Below, piece after piece: positions 33,503 to 40,596 of a stretch of 64,000 nucleotides of DNA (the stretch's first letter is position 1; each line of letters begins with the position of its first letter). The notes under the pieces were generated by a model that saw only the letters and a program-made list of their open reading frames with translations, made no database searches and was not told the DNA's origin. Origin of the DNA: an uncultured Bacteroidota bacterium. Its GTDB lineage: Bacteria > Bacteroidota > Bacteroidia > Flavobacteriales > Flavobacteriaceae. The stretch lies in NCBI GenBank assembly GCA_902613595.1, contig CACMHY010000001.1, positions 682,001 through 746,000 of the forward strand, written 5' to 3'. The position numbers were made by a program, and so were the translations under genes.

Positions 33503-33955
33503 ATGTCCAAAAATAGTAAGTATATTATTTTACTCGAAAGGTTATTAACGCATCACAGAAATGCAAAGCTTGATTATTTGAAAGCTGCTGACCATGCTGA
33601 TAAATCGGAAAAAAAGAGATACTTTAACAAACAAGCCATGTTGAGAAACCGATTTTTTCAAGAAATACTAAGTGAACTACAAAACCTTGGAATGCATTAT
33701 GATGATTTTGTGTCAAGTCGTTTTAATTTTGACCAACTATTAATCTCTTCAATTGATAAGTTAAGATCTAACGCTCTTAACAAATGTTTAGTGTCAGACA
33801 GGTTTTTATTAGAAACCTACCGTTCATTACAAGATAGCGAATTCCAAAATGAAAAGTTTCTTCAACATACCTCAAGCATTGAGATTGCAATTGAGCAAAA
33901 CCAATCCCTTGCTTCAAATTATAAAATTGAAAATAAAATAAGTTCTAATATCTAG
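33503..33955 (+). CDS. Small four-helix protein, DUF2383/PA2169-like
   Basis: 150 residues, nearly all predicted helix. The opening ILLERLLTHHRNAKLDYLKA followed by KRYFNKQAMLRNRFFQEILS resembles the ferritin-like DUF2383 bundle seen in stress-associated proteins of Bacteroidota. There is no signal peptide. I cannot assign a reaction, and the metal-binding Glu/His spacing of true ferritins is not obvious. It ends convergently with the lipoprotein gene, sharing the palindromic CTAG of the two stop codons. Confidence 0.55.
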   Translation: MSKNSKYIILLERLLTHHRNAKLDYLKAADHADKSEKKRYFNKQAMLRNRFFQEILSELQNLGMHYDDFVSSRFNFDQLLISSIDKLRSNALNKCLVSDRFLLETYRSLQDSEFQNEKFLQHTSSIEIAIEQNQSLASNYKIENKISSNI

Positions 33956-34479
33956 TCTTCAGTTTTTCCAAAGTCAAACTCTTGGAATTCATCCTCTAAA
34001 TTATTCATCCTTGAAATCATCGAATTATAACTTTTATACAGATCTTCTAGAGAAGATATTAATGAATCTTCCTTGAAATGCTTAGTGAAGTAATAAGACT
34101 TTTGTGATTGCATAAAAACTACTTTAAGGCGACTCCTTATCTGTGGCTTTTCAAACTTCTCGGGTAATTTTTTTGAGAGTAGATTTTTCAAAATTTTATT
34201 TAGTTTTAAAATCTCTAAATCTACGTTTCTAAAATCTAGTATTCTAAGCTGATTTAATAAATCGTGCAAGTTCTTAAATTCATCCCAATTCTCTATTTCG
34301 TAATTTTTTATAATTTCTTCTGGATAATCGGATAGTTTAAAATCAATATTAGAATTAGATGTTTTTTGGTTATGACTTTCGAAAATTTCTTTGGAATTAT
34401 TAGAGTTTTGTGTACTATGGTTTTTACATGATAAAAATAAAATAACACATAAGAATATGTTGAAAATGTAAAAATGCAT
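33952..34479 (-). CDS. Predicted lipoprotein at the end of the carotenoid operon, function unknown
   Basis: 175 residues from ATG 34479; a TTG at 34500 would add seven residues and overlap cruF. The signal sequence MHFYIFNIFLCVILFLSC ends in a lipobox Cys followed by a low-complexity Asn/Ser/His linker. The rest is helical and charged (with FKNLHDLLNQLRILDFRNVD and a C-terminal acidic end). I do not recognise the family. It begins 10 nt after the cruF stop, so it is likely transcribed with the carotenoid genes. Confidence 0.6.
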   Translation of the reverse strand: MHFYIFNIFLCVILFLSCKNHSTQNSNNSKEIFESHNQKTSNSNIDFKLSDYPEEIIKNYEIENWDEFKNLHDLLNQLRILDFRNVDLEILKLNKILKNLLSKKLPEKFEKPQIRSRLKVVFMQSQKSYYFTKHFKEDSLISSLEDLYKSYNSMISRMNNLEDEFQEFDFGKTED

Positions 34480-34489
34480 AGAAGTAAAT

Positions 34490-35143
34490 TTAAGTATCAA
34501 AAGAATTAATTTTTATTAGAAGTATTGTAAAAAACAGAAACTGAAGTATAAATAAATGAAAAGGAAACGGACCGCTTATTTTAGGACTTAACTTTTGATA
34601 AAAAAAATGCAGTGGAAATGAGACTAGTGACCAGCCCAAATAGTTTTGAAATGTAGCCAAGCCTGATTTGAAAGTCCAGAAATCTAGAACTGGAGCAACA
34701 GGTTCCATAACTAAATCTAATGAGATCATCAAAAATATTCCCAATAGGATTTTTTGCCAAAAATTATGAAAAAATGTATCAGCGATAAACCCTGTAATAA
34801 ACACTAAAATACACCAGTTAATTCCTATAAGAATGGGAACACCAAAAACTTTTGTTCCCAAGGCATTACCATAGCTATATTCTCCAAAAATAAATCCTTT
34901 ATTAACTCCAATAATTTCTGCTATCATACCAACTGTAAAACATAGAATAAAAAGAAAAACTGTTTTTTTTGAGATCTCAGTATTAATTAATACTAATAAA
35001 AAGCTCAAAGCTAAATTTAAAGGAGTGGCTTTTACAAACCATGAAGAATTACTATAAATAATACCTATTAGTCCTGAGATATGGAAAAGCCAAATTGTAG
35101 CAATTGATATGTTTTGTTTATTAAATACTTCTTTCTGTATCAC
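34490..35143 (-). CDS. cruF: Carotenoid 1,2-hydratase-like membrane protein (CruF / DUF422 family)
   Basis: Integral membrane protein of 217 residues with about seven hydrophobic segments. The family motif region includes EIIGVNKGFIFGEYSYG and the segment after VFGVPILIGINWCILVF. CruF adds water across the terminal psi-end double bond of carotenoids to give the 1-hydroxy end group of myxol and saproxanthin. Genomic context supports this: it overlaps crtD by 4 nt. The start is GTG at 35143, with GTGA overlapping the crtD TGA. Confidence 0.85.
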   Translation of the reverse strand: MIQKEVFNKQNISIATIWLFHISGLIGIIYSNSSWFVKATPLNLALSFLLVLINTEISKKTVFLFILCFTVGMIAEIIGVNKGFIFGEYSYGNALGTKVFGVPILIGINWCILVFITGFIADTFFHNFWQKILLGIFLMISLDLVMEPVAPVLDFWTFKSGLATFQNYLGWSLVSFPLHFFYQKLSPKISGPFPFHLFILQFLFFTILLIKINSFDT

Positions 35144-36612
35144 TTTGTATTATCAGGAATAATCTCAGAAACAATTTTTGCAGATAGTAAACATAAAGGA
35201 ATTCCACCTCCAGGATGAACACTGCCACCACAAAAATAAAGATTCTTGATTTTATTAGAGAAATTTGGATGCCTCAAAAATGCAGCAATTTTTTTATTGC
35301 TCGAAGAACCATATAAAGCTCCCATGTGTGACTGTGTTTTGGATTCAATAGTTGGCGGTGTTAAAATTTCTTCACATTCAATCTTATCTTCAAGAGAAAT
35401 ACCCAATTTTTCAGATAGGTTATTGATTACTATTTCCCTTAAATTTTTAACTAATTTATTCCAATCCTGTCCATGATTTGAAGGAGTATTAACCATCACA
35501 AACCAATTCTCACATCCTTCAGGTGCATCATTATAAACATCCTTAGAAGTTATATTTACATAAATAGTTGGATCTGTGCTTATAGTTTTATTCTTAAAAA
35601 TTGATTCAAACTCTTTAGAATAATTTTTTGAAAAAAATATGTTATGTAAATCAAGTTGTTTAAATGAGTGTTTAATTCCCCAATAAAAAATTATTGCAGA
35701 ACTTGAACGTTCTTGATTTAGAACTTTTAAAGGTGGTTTTGATTTAGGAATTAATTTTTTATAGGTATAAAATACATCCATATTAGAAATAACATAATCA
35801 GATTCGAAAAAGTCATCACTTACCATTATTCCTTTTACACTTTTTTTATTAAGGACTATCTGATTTACCAAAGAACCAAAATGAAATTTTACACCTAATC
35901 TTTTTGCCAAAGCAACTAAGGCTTCAGTAATCGAAACCATTCCTTTAGTGGGAATAAATGTCCCATATGAATTTTCAAAATGTTGAATTAAGCTCATAAT
36001 GCCAGGGGTTTGGTATGGATCTGATCCATTATATGTGGCATATCTATCAAAAAGTTGAATTAAGTAAGGAGATGAAAATGCACTTGAGTTTACTTGATGA
36101 AGTGATTTTTGAATCTCAAAAACGTGAAGTTGCAAGATTGCTTTTATTGTAGAGGCCGTAAAAAACGTTCCAATTTTGTGTAATGATTTTTCTAAAAATA
36201 AAGTTCCTGTGAGGTCATATTTCTTTTTTGCCTTTTTTAGATATCTGATTACTCTTTCTCTAGGTTCGTTGAATCTCAATTCAACTTCATCTAAAAACTT
36301 TTCTTGATTACCAAAAGCTGTAAATGTCTTTCCGTCTTGCCAAAAATATTTACAGGACACATCTTTTTTCTTGAAATGAAAATGATCACTAGTATTTTCT
36401 CCAGCCAACTCAAAGAGTTCTGAAATAAAATGTGGCATGGTAAACAAAGAGGGCCCTGCATCAAAACGATAACCTTTAAGTTTAAAAGATGACAACTTTC
36501 CTCCTGGATATTTATTTTGTTCAAAAATGTGTACCTTATAACCTTTCAATGCTAATCTCACTCCAGAAGCTAATCCTGCAACCCCCGATCCTATAATTGC
36601 AATTTTTTTCAT
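35140..36612 (-). CDS. crtD: CrtD-like carotenoid 3,4-desaturase (phytoene desaturase superfamily)
   Basis: FAD-dependent carotenoid desaturase of 490 residues. The N-terminal dinucleotide motif is IIGSGVAGLASGVRLA, followed by GGKLSSFKLKGYRFDAGPSL, and the C-terminal flavin motif FCGGSVHPGGGIPLCLLSAK ends the protein. It is a paralogue of the crtI gene at 39130. Assignment as 1-hydroxycarotenoid 3,4-desaturase rests on the C-terminal HPGGGIP form and on the adjacent cruF and crtA genes rather than on a diagnostic residue. It overlaps crtA by ATGA and cruF by GTGA. Confidence 0.82.
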   Translation of the reverse strand: MKKIAIIGSGVAGLASGVRLALKGYKVHIFEQNKYPGGKLSSFKLKGYRFDAGPSLFTMPHFISELFELAGENTSDHFHFKKKDVSCKYFWQDGKTFTAFGNQEKFLDEVELRFNEPRERVIRYLKKAKKKYDLTGTLFLEKSLHKIGTFFTASTIKAILQLHVFEIQKSLHQVNSSAFSSPYLIQLFDRYATYNGSDPYQTPGIMSLIQHFENSYGTFIPTKGMVSITEALVALAKRLGVKFHFGSLVNQIVLNKKSVKGIMVSDDFFESDYVISNMDVFYTYKKLIPKSKPPLKVLNQERSSSAIIFYWGIKHSFKQLDLHNIFFSKNYSKEFESIFKNKTISTDPTIYVNITSKDVYNDAPEGCENWFVMVNTPSNHGQDWNKLVKNLREIVINNLSEKLGISLEDKIECEEILTPPTIESKTQSHMGALYGSSSNKKIAAFLRHPNFSNKIKNLYFCGGSVHPGGGIPLCLLSAKIVSEIIPDNTK

Positions 36613-37295
36613 AATCGCAATTTTTTAGTTGTGTCTGATATAAGATTGAATCTTGAGAAAAGATCTTCTTTGTACCACTTTTTTTTTCTTGTAACTTTCA
36701 CAATATCTGAATGAATTTTGTCTTTGTAAGCAAATTCATTTATTGATTTGAAGTTATCCCAAATACTAATTGTAGCTTGCTGAATGAAAGGCCACTCTCC
36801 TATACCCTTGTAGTAGATGACTCCTTTAGCATTTTTTATTGCCTTGCTAGCATTAGGAACTGCATTCCAAAAAGAAGGTAATCTATTCCAACTCAAAGTT
36901 GCACGGGTAATAACAACAACTTTTTCGTGTGCTTTATTTTTCGAATTGTCAGAATCTAATTTAAAAGGGTTTATCCCATCCCAAGATCCATGACTATTTA
37001 TATTTTTTAAAACTAAATCACGTTGAGTATCTGCCTTTCTTTGGTAATTAATGAATATAGGGTGTTGAGTCAAACATTTATTATATGACTCATAATTATC
37101 CCACACACCTAAAAATGCATAAGTTGAAAAATCAGGGTAAAGACTAAAACCTTGACCCCCACCAGTTCCAAGAAATTTATAAAATGACAACCCTTTCACA
37201 TTACTAACTTTCTTTGGAGCTACTCCCATCTGTGAAAATGCCCAAAACTTGTTTTTGACAAACGAAAAAATTGTGACTGAAGTAATCGAATTCAT
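36609..37295 (-). CDS. crtA: CrtA-like carotenoid oxygenase (spheroidene monooxygenase family)
   Basis: 228 residues. The family signature LGTGGGQGFSLYPDFSTYAF lies near residues 42-62, followed by LGVWDNYESY and, in the second half, YYKGIGEWPFIQQATISIWD, showing two related dimeric-barrel halves. In purple bacteria CrtA introduces a 2-keto group next to a 1-methoxy end. Here it leads an operon with crtD and cruF, so it probably oxidises C-2' of a 1'-hydroxy end group (giving a keto or hydroxy group), which would suit myxol-type products. This is inference. ATG start at 37295; a long inverted repeat lies 58-118 bp upstream. Confidence 0.82.
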   Translation of the reverse strand: MNSITSVTIFSFVKNKFWAFSQMGVAPKKVSNVKGLSFYKFLGTGGGQGFSLYPDFSTYAFLGVWDNYESYNKCLTQHPIFINYQRKADTQRDLVLKNINSHGSWDGINPFKLDSDNSKNKAHEKVVVITRATLSWNRLPSFWNAVPNASKAIKNAKGVIYYKGIGEWPFIQQATISIWDNFKSINEFAYKDKIHSDIVKVTRKKKWYKEDLFSRFNLISDTTKKLRL

Positions 37296-37632
37296 TAATT
37301 TGAGGGTATAGCAACTTTTTACCTTTGTAAATTTATGAAAAGAAAGAAAGAAAAAACGTCTCTGTTTAGGATTTTAGAATTTGACTAATGGAAGTAATCA
37401 GCAGAGACGTTTTGAAACCAAATTGAATTTAAACTTGTTTAAAATTAAATAAAAAAAGTTATACAAAAAAAGGTTTTGTTTATTTTTTTTATTTTTTTTT
37501 GAAACGTTAAATATTAAATCTGGCTTTTTTGTAGCAATAGATTTATTATCAATAGATTATTAAACAGATAAAAAATATCTTTAATAAATTAAATTATTGA
37601 AAAAAATGTTTTTTTGATCTAAAATATATTTT
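37296..37632. other. 337-bp AT-rich divergent intergenic region
   Basis: This separates crtA (minus) from the potassium channel gene (plus) and must contain both promoters. It holds the 12-bp inverted repeat at 37353-37413 and long A and T runs around 37440-37500 and 37600-37620. No exact TAnnTTTG box was found on either strand and no ORF is convincing. Confidence 0.6.
37353..37413. repeat. 12-bp inverted repeat upstream of crtA
   Basis: AAAACGTCTCTG (37353-37364) and its exact reverse complement CAGAGACGTTTT (37402-37413) flank a 37-nt spacer. It could be a pair of operator half-sites, a hairpin in the crtA leader, or a remnant of a REP-like element. I saw no second copy in the window. Confidence 0.45.
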
Positions 37633-39129: not shown

Positions 39130-40596
39130 ATGAGTAAAAAAATTGCGATTATAGGCTCTGGATTTTCATCCATGTCTGCTGCTTCCTATCTGGCGAGGAG
39201 TGGTTTTGAAGTAAACGTTTATGAAAAAAATAAAACTCTTGGAGGAAGGGCACGTCAACTAAAAAAGGATGGTTTTACTTTTGATATGGGCCCTTCTTGG
39301 TATTGGATGCCTGATGTTTTTGAATCATTTTTTAATGATTTTGGAAAAAAAACAGCTGACTTTTATAAGCTTGAAAGATTAGATCCTGGTTACCAAGTTT
39401 TTTTTGGAGAAAACGAAAGTATATGCATAGGTGATTCTCTTGAAAAAATTTATGATGTTTTTGAAAAAGAGGAAAAAGGTAGTAGTGAAAAGCTTAAGAA
39501 ATTTATCAAAACTGCAAATGAAAACTATAATATAGCAATTAAAGATCTTGTCTATCGCCCAGGAATTAGCCCGTTAGAACTTATTACACCAACAACAATA
39601 AAAAAGATAAAATACTTTTTAAGTAATATAAAAAGAGACGTGTGTAAAGATTTTGTAAGCCCTAAGCTTAGACAAATACTTCAGTTCCCCGTTCTTTTCC
39701 TCGGTGCAAAACCCTCTGAAACTCCTTCTTTCTACAATTTTATGAATTATGCAGATTTTGGATTAGGAACATGGCACCCAGAAAAAGGAATGTATAGTAT
39801 AGTTGAAGCAATGTCTTCATTAGCTAAATCTCTTGGTGTAAAATTCCATACAGAATCTAATGTCGAAAAAATACTAGTTAATGACTCTAGAAATATAGCT
39901 GGTATAAAAATAAATGGGGATATTTTAGAAGTGGATGTTGTATTATCAGGTGCAGACTACCACCATTCAGAAAGCCTTTTAGATAAAAAATATAGAAGGT
40001 ATAGCAACGCATACTGGGATAAAAAAGTTTTTGCTCCCTCCTCACTATTATTTTATATCGGCTTAAATAAAAAAGTTGAAAATGTATCCCATCATTCTCT
40101 TTTTTTTGACGTTGACTTTGACAAACATGCTAGTACTATTTATGACTCTCCTTCATGGCCAGAAAATCCACTTTTTTATGCAAACTTCCCATCAATTTCA
40201 GACTCTTCGATGGCTCCAAAAGGAAAAGAAGCTTGCTTCATACTAGTTCCAATTGCTCCCGGATTAGAGGATACCAAAAAAATTAGAGATCATTATCTTG
40301 ATTTAGTTATCAATAGGCTAGAAAAATTGACTCATCAGCCAATAAAAAAAGAAATTCTTTTTTGCGAGTCATTTTGTATTAATGACTTTGTTAGTGAATA
40401 TAATTCCTACAAAGGCAACGCGTATGGGTTAGCTAACACACTTTTTCAAACAGCATTTTTGCGTCCAAAACTAAAAAGTAAAAGAGTGAAAAATTTGTAC
40501 TTTACAGGACAACTAACTGTTCCTGGTCCTGGGGTTCCACCAGCAATAATCTCTGGTAAATTAGTTTCAGATTTAATTTCAAAGACTAATCCTTAG
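39130..40596 (+). CDS. crtI: Phytoene desaturase
   Basis: FAD-dependent desaturase of 488 residues that converts colourless phytoene to lycopene-type polyenes. The N-terminal flavin motif is IIGSGFSSMSAASYLA, then GGRARQLKKDGFTFDMGPSWYW. The C-terminal motif LYFTGQLTVPGPGVPPAIIS is typical of CrtI, unlike the CrtD-like paralogue at 35140. In many flavobacteria crtI is followed directly by crtB (phytoene synthase); here the next gene is on the opposite strand and overlaps the crtI end by 11 nt, so crtB must lie elsewhere. ATG start at 39130. Confidence 0.92.
   Translation: MSKKIAIIGSGFSSMSAASYLARSGFEVNVYEKNKTLGGRARQLKKDGFTFDMGPSWYWMPDVFESFFNDFGKKTADFYKLERLDPGYQVFFGENESICIGDSLEKIYDVFEKEEKGSSEKLKKFIKTANENYNIAIKDLVYRPGISPLELITPTTIKKIKYFLSNIKRDVCKDFVSPKLRQILQFPVLFLGAKPSETPSFYNFMNYADFGLGTWHPEKGMYSIVEAMSSLAKSLGVKFHTESNVEKILVNDSRNIAGIKINGDILEVDVVLSGADYHHSESLLDKKYRRYSNAYWDKKVFAPSSLLFYIGLNKKVENVSHHSLFFDVDFDKHASTIYDSPSWPENPLFYANFPSISDSSMAPKGKEACFILVPIAPGLEDTKKIRDHYLDLVINRLEKLTHQPIKKEILFCESFCINDFVSEYNSYKGNAYGLANTLFQTAFLRPKLKSKRVKNLYFTGQLTVPGPGVPPAIISGKLVSDLISKTNP

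Follow-up and report, generated by a model that had tools for sequence, protein, structure and literature searches.

The 64,000-nucleotide (nt) stretch of DNA studied here (contig CACMHY010000001.1, positions 682,001 to 746,000, of assembly GCA_902613595.1; hereafter the window, to which all positions refer) comes from an uncultured marine bacterium of the Flavobacteriaceae, whose genome amounts to 1.90 Mb in 24 contigs and is 85% complete. Three adjacent genes on its minus strand, crtA, crtD and cruF, very probably (with a probability of about 0.85) encode the enzymes that act on the psi end in the formation of myxol, an orange pigment, the CrtA homologue being predicted to hydroxylate C-2'. 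The adjacency, already noted in a preliminary description of the window, was confirmed by open reading frames (ORFs) and family matches (Table 1). In the proposed pathway CruF would hydrate gamma-carotene, itself presumably made by a CrtY homologue, at its 1',2' double bond, and CrtD would then desaturate the 3',4' bond. The CrtA homologue, a predicted heme monooxygenase that depends on O2 and folds like aldoxime dehydratase, would hydroxylate C-2' once, and CrtZ would add the 3-hydroxyl of the ring to give myxol. We infer the reaction order and the product by homology with the tested enzymes of Nonlabens. The operon is of an ordinary, already known type, because the enzyme is known from related bacteria.

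The gene crtA-OH was reportedly described for Flavobacterium P99-3 by Rahlert et al. in 2009. Experiments with E. coli in PMC11855829 showed that CrtA-OH of Nonlabens spongiae converts 1'-hydroxytorulene to deoxymyxol, and the same paper demonstrates the complete pathway to myxol. The preliminary description had supposed that the gene of the 2'-step could not be named with certainty in this phylum; this view had to be given up, since CrtA-OH is a published carotenoid 2-hydroxylase of myxol biosynthesis and crtA-OH is already described in Flavobacteriaceae (PMC11855829). Its expectation of a monocyclic carotenoid that receives a C-2' oxygen from the CrtA homologue after CruF and CrtD have acted is supported by the tested Nonlabens homologue and by the co-occurrence described below. 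The CrtA-OH systems of P99-3 and Nonlabens spongiae belong to related bacteria and have in common with the window set the enzyme family and the partners crtD, cruF, crtB, crtI, crtY and crtZ. In Nonlabens crtA-OH lies reversed in one cluster with the pathway genes (PMC11855829), unlike the window, where crtA leads crtA-crtD-cruF and crtI, crtY and crtB-crtZ are found elsewhere. The same gene complement as here is present in Schleiferia thermophila, whose crtBDEIYZA and cruF were read as myxol genes in 2014 (PMC4148732). Further carotenoid context is provided by PMC10784355 and PMC10892129.

Distribution and gene order among relatives

The same 149 relatives (87 genera) were queried with crtA, cruF and crtD, with a limit of E <= 1e-60 for crtD. 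Homologues of crtA were detected in 49 of them and those of cruF and crtD in 61 each, the genome lists of the latter two being identical; by genus, crtA was represented in 13, cruF in 21 and crtD in 21 of the 87. All 49 crtA genomes fall within the 61 that carry cruF and crtD, which leaves 12 with these two genes but no crtA; none of the 88 genomes outside the 61 has crtA. The hypergeometric probability of such nesting is 2.6e-28 by genome and 2.0e-10 by genus, both uncorrected for relatedness. In eight of the 49 genomes (G142, G119, G102, G113, G127, G046, G108 and G135) crtA is located at a distance from crtD and cruF, both of which are still present. These unlinked cases carry more weight than the counts and are best explained if the enzyme requires what CruF and CrtD produce.

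Within the genus of the window, crtA and crtD are adjacent in all 29 other crtA loci compared (L005-L033), and cruF follows them in eight of the nine other genomes having longer loci; the exception is L092, a second crtA-crtD copy in G005, whose 9.1-kb contig lacks cruF. The order crtA-crtD-cruF is kept down to about 47% crtA identity (L072, L074, L075), and at L070 crtA-crtD is present with no cruF match. The longer order crtI, a ThuA-like gene or not, channel gene, crtA, crtD, cruF recurs in more loci, some of them titled Candidatus Arcticimaribacter. Because the order is kept across relatives, the arrangement of the three genes would not be due to chance. Other arrangements were also encountered. 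Locus L039 carries crtD-cruF-crtY-crtA on a single strand, and L043 and L046 carry MerR-crtI-crtB-crtZ-crtD-cruF with a reversed crtA, L046 having in addition crtY ahead of crtA, so that its gene order equals the published Nonlabens order.

The possibility that the CrtA homologue oxidises a non-carotenoid compound and owes its place in the operon to chance is very remote. Unlinked homologues do adjoin non-carotenoid genes in eight of the 49 relatives and on a Deinococcus plasmid, but all 49 crtA genomes, the eight with unlinked copies among them, carry cruF and crtD; moreover, crtA is coupled to crtD by a 4-nt overlap, and a carotenoid is the substrate of the Nonlabens homologue that has been tested (PMC11855829). 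Since cruF and crtD exist elsewhere in the eight searched genomes, their unlinked crtA homologues look like members of the same carotenoid step.

Copies of crtA away from crtD and cruF were observed at L040, L041, L042, L044, L045, L047, L048 and L095, and also at L077 and L078. Two assemblies, G021 (contigs C23 and C37) and G005 (contigs C202 and C228), contain two crtA and two crtD genes each, which may reflect contamination, strain mixture or duplication. Proteins of the CrtA family with about 30% identity were also met on a plasmid of Deinococcus taeanensis (L097), where the protein is annotated as hypothetical and its annotated neighbours include no carotenoid gene, and in Nonomuraea gerenzanensis (L100), in a stretch that bears no annotation.

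Phylogeny, conserved residues and predicted fold of the CrtA homologue

The crtA product matches the NCBIfam model of purple-bacterial spheroidene monooxygenase (NF045923) over residues 5-222 with an E-value of 1.3e-56, and its 191.5 bits lie below the 300 bits at which the curated ketolase equivalog is called. For phylogenetic analysis 82 crtA proteins were collected, from which 10 exact duplicates were removed to leave 72 rows, and a thinned set of 36 rows was prepared. All 52 operon-type rows form a single clade with support of 100/100. The four CrtAs from photosynthesis clusters fall with rows of Flavobacterium, of Chryseobacterium-labelled entries and of Saprospiraceae; bch genes lie beside crtA at L096, L098, L099 and L101. 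In the 36-row set, forcing the operon rows together with the photosynthesis-cluster rows cost 10.2 log units (approximately unbiased test, p-AU 0.024), in a comparison whose groups were named post hoc and whose photosynthesis-cluster rows sit on a long branch (1.38), three of the four with a composition unlike the rest. The window CrtA is thus probably outside the ketolase lineage, but its precise relationship to the Nonlabens type is not secure. The ketolase crtA of purple bacteria is described as derived from Bacteroidetes hydroxylases via transfer (PMC2889829, PMC10604819), and our CrtA tree is consistent with a transfer in this direction without proving it.

Alignment of the 72 rows, photosynthesis-cluster CrtAs included, revealed H195 as the sole invariant histidine; R131, W105, W179, W207 and M23 are likewise invariant. 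The AlphaFold model of the CrtA homologue is confident (mean predicted local distance difference test score, pLDDT, 85.4; predicted template modelling score, pTM, 0.85), and its closest fold is that of aldoxime dehydratase (OxdRE/OxdB), a heme enzyme, which it resembles over the whole chain (Z 14.1, 3.8 Å, 219 residues); the next unrelated structures reach Z 8.6. The identity to aldoxime dehydratase is 9%, the likeness being one of fold comparison only, and there is no reason to expect the same reaction. No solved structure related to the protein by sequence was found up to E 1, and a scan of viral contigs gave no viral relative. Purple-bacterial CrtA is reported to contain a 5-coordinate heme, to need O2 and reduced ferredoxin and to form its ketone via two hydroxylations (PMC10604819). 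By analogy with that report the CrtA homologue may be expected to bind heme as well, with H195 as the probable ligand of the iron, and we infer that it would perform one hydroxylation at C-2', not two. Homology with the purple-bacterial enzyme (spheroidene monooxygenase, a 2-ketolase) extends over the full length at about 29-31% identity, and H195, R131, W105, G103 and other residues are identical. The two differ in their setting: the purple-bacterial enzyme serves an acyclic pathway, whereas the window host has a cyclic one (crtY is present) and no photosynthesis genes nearby.

The family likeness raises the question of a 2'-ketolase, which would hydroxylate C-2' twice and, after loss of water, yield a 2'-keto monocyclic carotenoid. 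Such an activity would agree with the identity of H195, R131, W105 and further residues in 72/72 rows and with PMC5822342, which credits the CrtA enzymes of Rhodobacter and Flavobacterium with 2-ketolase and 2-hydroxylase activity. We nevertheless consider it improbable in view of the score below the equivalog cut-off, the lack of photosynthesis genes among the neighbours of crtA identified in the window, and the tree comparison, within the limits given above. Thirteen alignment columns, in addition, positions 190, 202, 208 and 213 among them, are class-specific: all four photosynthesis-cluster rows agree on one residue, and a different one is found in at least 90% of the 55 Bacteroidota rows of operon or cluster type, although in some of these columns other Bacteroidota share the photosynthesis-cluster residue. 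The tested Bacteroidota enzymes are, finally, hydroxylases (PMC11855829, PMC10604819, PMC2889829), and hydroxylation remains the preferred assignment for the window protein.

Remaining pathway genes and the predicted product

The other genes expected for myxol were recognised elsewhere in the genome. On contig C9 the gene of a MerR protein that has a B12-binding domain is followed by crtB (PF00494) and a crtZ-like gene (PF04116), and a crtY homologue (PF05834) is located at C1:781092-782300, adjoining a polyprenyl synthase gene. All three Pfam matches exceed their cut-offs and denote phytoene synthase, lycopene cyclase and ring hydroxylase at the family level; the crtB and crtY products lie below the NCBIfam equivalog cut-offs, and the crtZ-like product matches no NCBIfam equivalog. 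PF05834 was found in 36 of the 38 genomes of the genus, above cut-off in 34 and as short sub-cut-off matches only in G002 and G006, and the other cyclase family PF18916 in one of the 38. The MerR protein of C9 (L035 102-1040) is CarH-like, below the CarH cut-off, and possibly places the pathway under light control.

The genome, at 85% completeness, yielded no recognisable CrtW-like protein. Two proteins of PF00487 (FA_desaturase), of 344 and 372 amino acids (aa), have no curated NCBIfam match at E <= 1e-5; we take CrtW to belong to this family, and the 344-aa protein presumably bears AlkB-type histidine motifs. A PF01593 search of the genome likewise revealed no CrtO-type ketolase; it matched crtI, crtD and the N-terminal part of a 495-aa protein, which by eye looks like the small subunit of glutamate synthase. 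These results bear on 2'-hydroxyflexixanthin, an end product put forward in the preliminary description, which would require that a 4-ketolase convert the ring of the myxol skeleton to the keto form. A carotenoid (3S,2'S)-2'-hydroxyflexixanthin has reportedly been described, to judge from the title of a paper, but the two PF00487 proteins match no curated ketolase model and no CrtO-type enzyme was seen in the genome at its 85% completeness; this product appears improbable. Among the products offered earlier, myxol, with its 2'-hydroxy group, is favoured because no CrtW-like protein was recognised and the CrtA homologue falls outside the curated ketolase equivalog; the 2'-ketone and 2'-hydroxyflexixanthin are less likely.

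Several observations count against the assignment of these genes to myxol biosynthesis. In the tree the operon clade next joins L039, L043 and L046 with weak support, 81/79 with 72 rows and 55/67.8 with 36 rows. The window crtA product has only 34% identity to the homologue at L046, which stands for the Nonlabens type by gene order and through which kinship with that type was judged. The cruF product is below the equivalog cut-offs of CruF (TIGR03460, 65.5 against 154.7 bits; NF041333, 38.5 against 300; NF045693, 29.7 against 400), which would weaken the name cruF and not the likely reaction. The crtB/crtZ genes and crtY are sited away from the operon, so that a shared pathway for these separate places is presumed. 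Co-occurrence is inflated, with 35 of the 49 crtA genomes belonging to one genus and the genes mostly linked physically, and linked genes vanish together from incomplete assemblies, which bears on the values given above. The crtD match is weak in two of the 61 genomes (33% identity in G083, a fragment in G131), and in four genomes crtI barely passes the crtD E-value limit as a second match. The Schleiferia thermophila strain has pigment data from high-performance liquid chromatography, whereas for the window host myxol is a prediction from its genes. For Rhodothermus marinus, 2'-hydroxylated carotenoids are reported and no crtA gene was found (PMC5822342); hence another enzyme can do 2'-hydroxylation in some bacteria.

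The genome also encodes a proteorhodopsin, whose gene adjoins blh (Blh dioxygenase) on contig C13 (L104 4523-6230) and whose closest solved rhodopsins by sequence are the proteorhodopsins 9jou/9jov (about 390 bits; next 182). A paper of 2025, as its title has it, reportedly deals with carotenoids bound to the rhodopsins of marine Bacteroidota, and a hydroxylated monocyclic carotenoid may therefore matter for light use. While the operon by itself alters no existing picture, it points to a likely pigment, myxol, for uncultured, rhodopsin-bearing marine flavobacteria, and the nested distribution together with the unlinked crtA copies provides targets for testing hydroxylase against ketolase activity.

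A small-RNA candidate upstream of crtA

Between a potassium-channel gene and crtA, 55 nt upstream of the latter, our analysis revealed an element whose 5' part hardly varies and which has a stem of 11 bp, a conserved loop and a T-run (Table 1). If transcribed alone, its 5' end would be expected near a TATCTTTAAAC-type box on the minus strand. In 28 aligned candidates (27 distinct), changes on both sides with pairing kept affect six of 10 pairs, 98.1% of the cells pair, and the covariation score was reached by 0/500 shuffles; in a broader set of 18 sequences compensatory changes occur in five of 11 pairs, again with 0/500 shuffles. The slid controls lean towards the chosen stems, because these were read from the consensus (28-sequence set) and from the window sequence (18-sequence set). 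Single-sequence folding was moderately better than that of shuffles in four sequences (z -2.8, -3.8, -1.7 and -3.6).

A covariance model of the element found matches in 28 of the 149 relatives, all within the genus of the window (28 of its 38 genomes), and all 29 matches stand 45-76 nt upstream of a same-strand crtA; the search used strict filters with 28 candidates scored per genome, so that further copies at other places may have escaped it. A 19-nt pattern of the candidate occurs in nine of 397 family genomes (five genera) and its reversed control in none. By pattern or model the element is also present at L069, L072, L074, L080 and L130-L135, several other genera included. It had no match in seven of the 35 same-genus crtA genomes (G001, G004, G005, G008, G015, G025 and G030) and none at L063, L067 and L068, which are Arcticimaribacter loci. 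In Rfam the one gathering-score match of the window is a transfer RNA, and the candidate region has only a chance-level match (E 9.3, other strand).

Two readings that would tie the element to a neighbouring gene were rejected. A crtA leader or attenuator as the general case disagrees with L130 and L131, where the element lies between a convergent gene, nupC-like by eye, and the channel gene, and where crtA, sought within the 3-kb locus, gave no match. A part of the channel gene is disfavoured by L011, L012 and L135, which have the element and crtA with no channel gene in the locus. As the element occurs in some loci without crtA or without the channel gene, it is best read as a candidate small-RNA gene of its own. 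A cis role is still conceivable for most genomes, in which crtA and the channel gene usually both adjoin. That it represents an undescribed small-RNA family of marine Flavobacteriaceae, placed beside crtA, potassium-channel gene and crtI and contributing in trans to the control of genes related to pigment or light, is a tentative suggestion that we hold to be rather doubtful; such an RNA would have a promoter to itself, and the covarying hairpin would be its terminator. The literature titles surveyed held nothing on a small RNA at the crtA locus.

A regulator binding a palindromic operator was weighed as well; the 16-nt palindrome gave two matches in the window when up to two mismatches were allowed, both of them one site read on either strand, with 1.04 expected by chance. 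Three viral contigs that carry a 17-nt part, none with an RNA-model match at E <= 0.1, were ascribed to chance. Scans for sigma-70 promoters and for terminators performed no better than on shuffles. Flavobacterial promoters differ from the sigma-70 pattern, and the terminator scan, limited to loops of 3-8 nt, is blind to the long-looped hairpin before crtA.

Gene layout of the locus

Table 1. Features of the carotenoid locus in the window
Feature	Position	Strand	Basis
crtA-OH-like, predicted carotenoid psi-end 2-hydroxylase, 228 aa, ATG start	36609..37295	-	NF045923, 191.5 bits; cut-off of 300 missed
crtD, predicted 1-hydroxycarotenoid 3,4-desaturase, 490 aa, ATG start	35140..36612	-	NF042421, 670.5 bits; cut-off of 500 reached
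cruF-like, predicted carotenoid 1,2-hydratase, 217 aa, GTG start	34490..35143	-	PF04240, 87.7 bits; cut-off of 25 reached
Fourth gene, lipoprotein-like	33952..34479 (ATG start) or 33952-34500 (TTG start)	-	ORF; no family match
crtI, phytoene desaturase, divergent from the operon	39130..40596	+	NF058655, 716.1 bits; cut-off of 640 reached
Small-RNA candidate: constant 5' part, 11-bp covarying stem, T-run	37351..37443	-	Covariation, conservation

According to the ORF list the overlaps crtA/crtD and crtD/cruF are exactly 4 nt each. The preliminary description had extended such overlaps throughout the operon from position 33952; this holds for crtA, crtD and cruF and fails for the fourth gene, whose in-frame ATG (34479) sits 10 nt past the cruF stop. 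The protein that starts there begins with MHFYIFNIFLCVILFLSC and appears lipoprotein-like by eye, and the longer ORF had zero family matches in the profile searches of the window proteins. The position of this gene is kept across the genus, and its sequence is fast-evolving, with identities from 93% down to about 25%. A potassium-channel-like gene and a ThuA-like gene lie between the operon and the divergent crtI, which exceeds the cut-off of a family labelled as bifunctional phytoene/3,4-desaturase (NF058655) despite the separate crtD.

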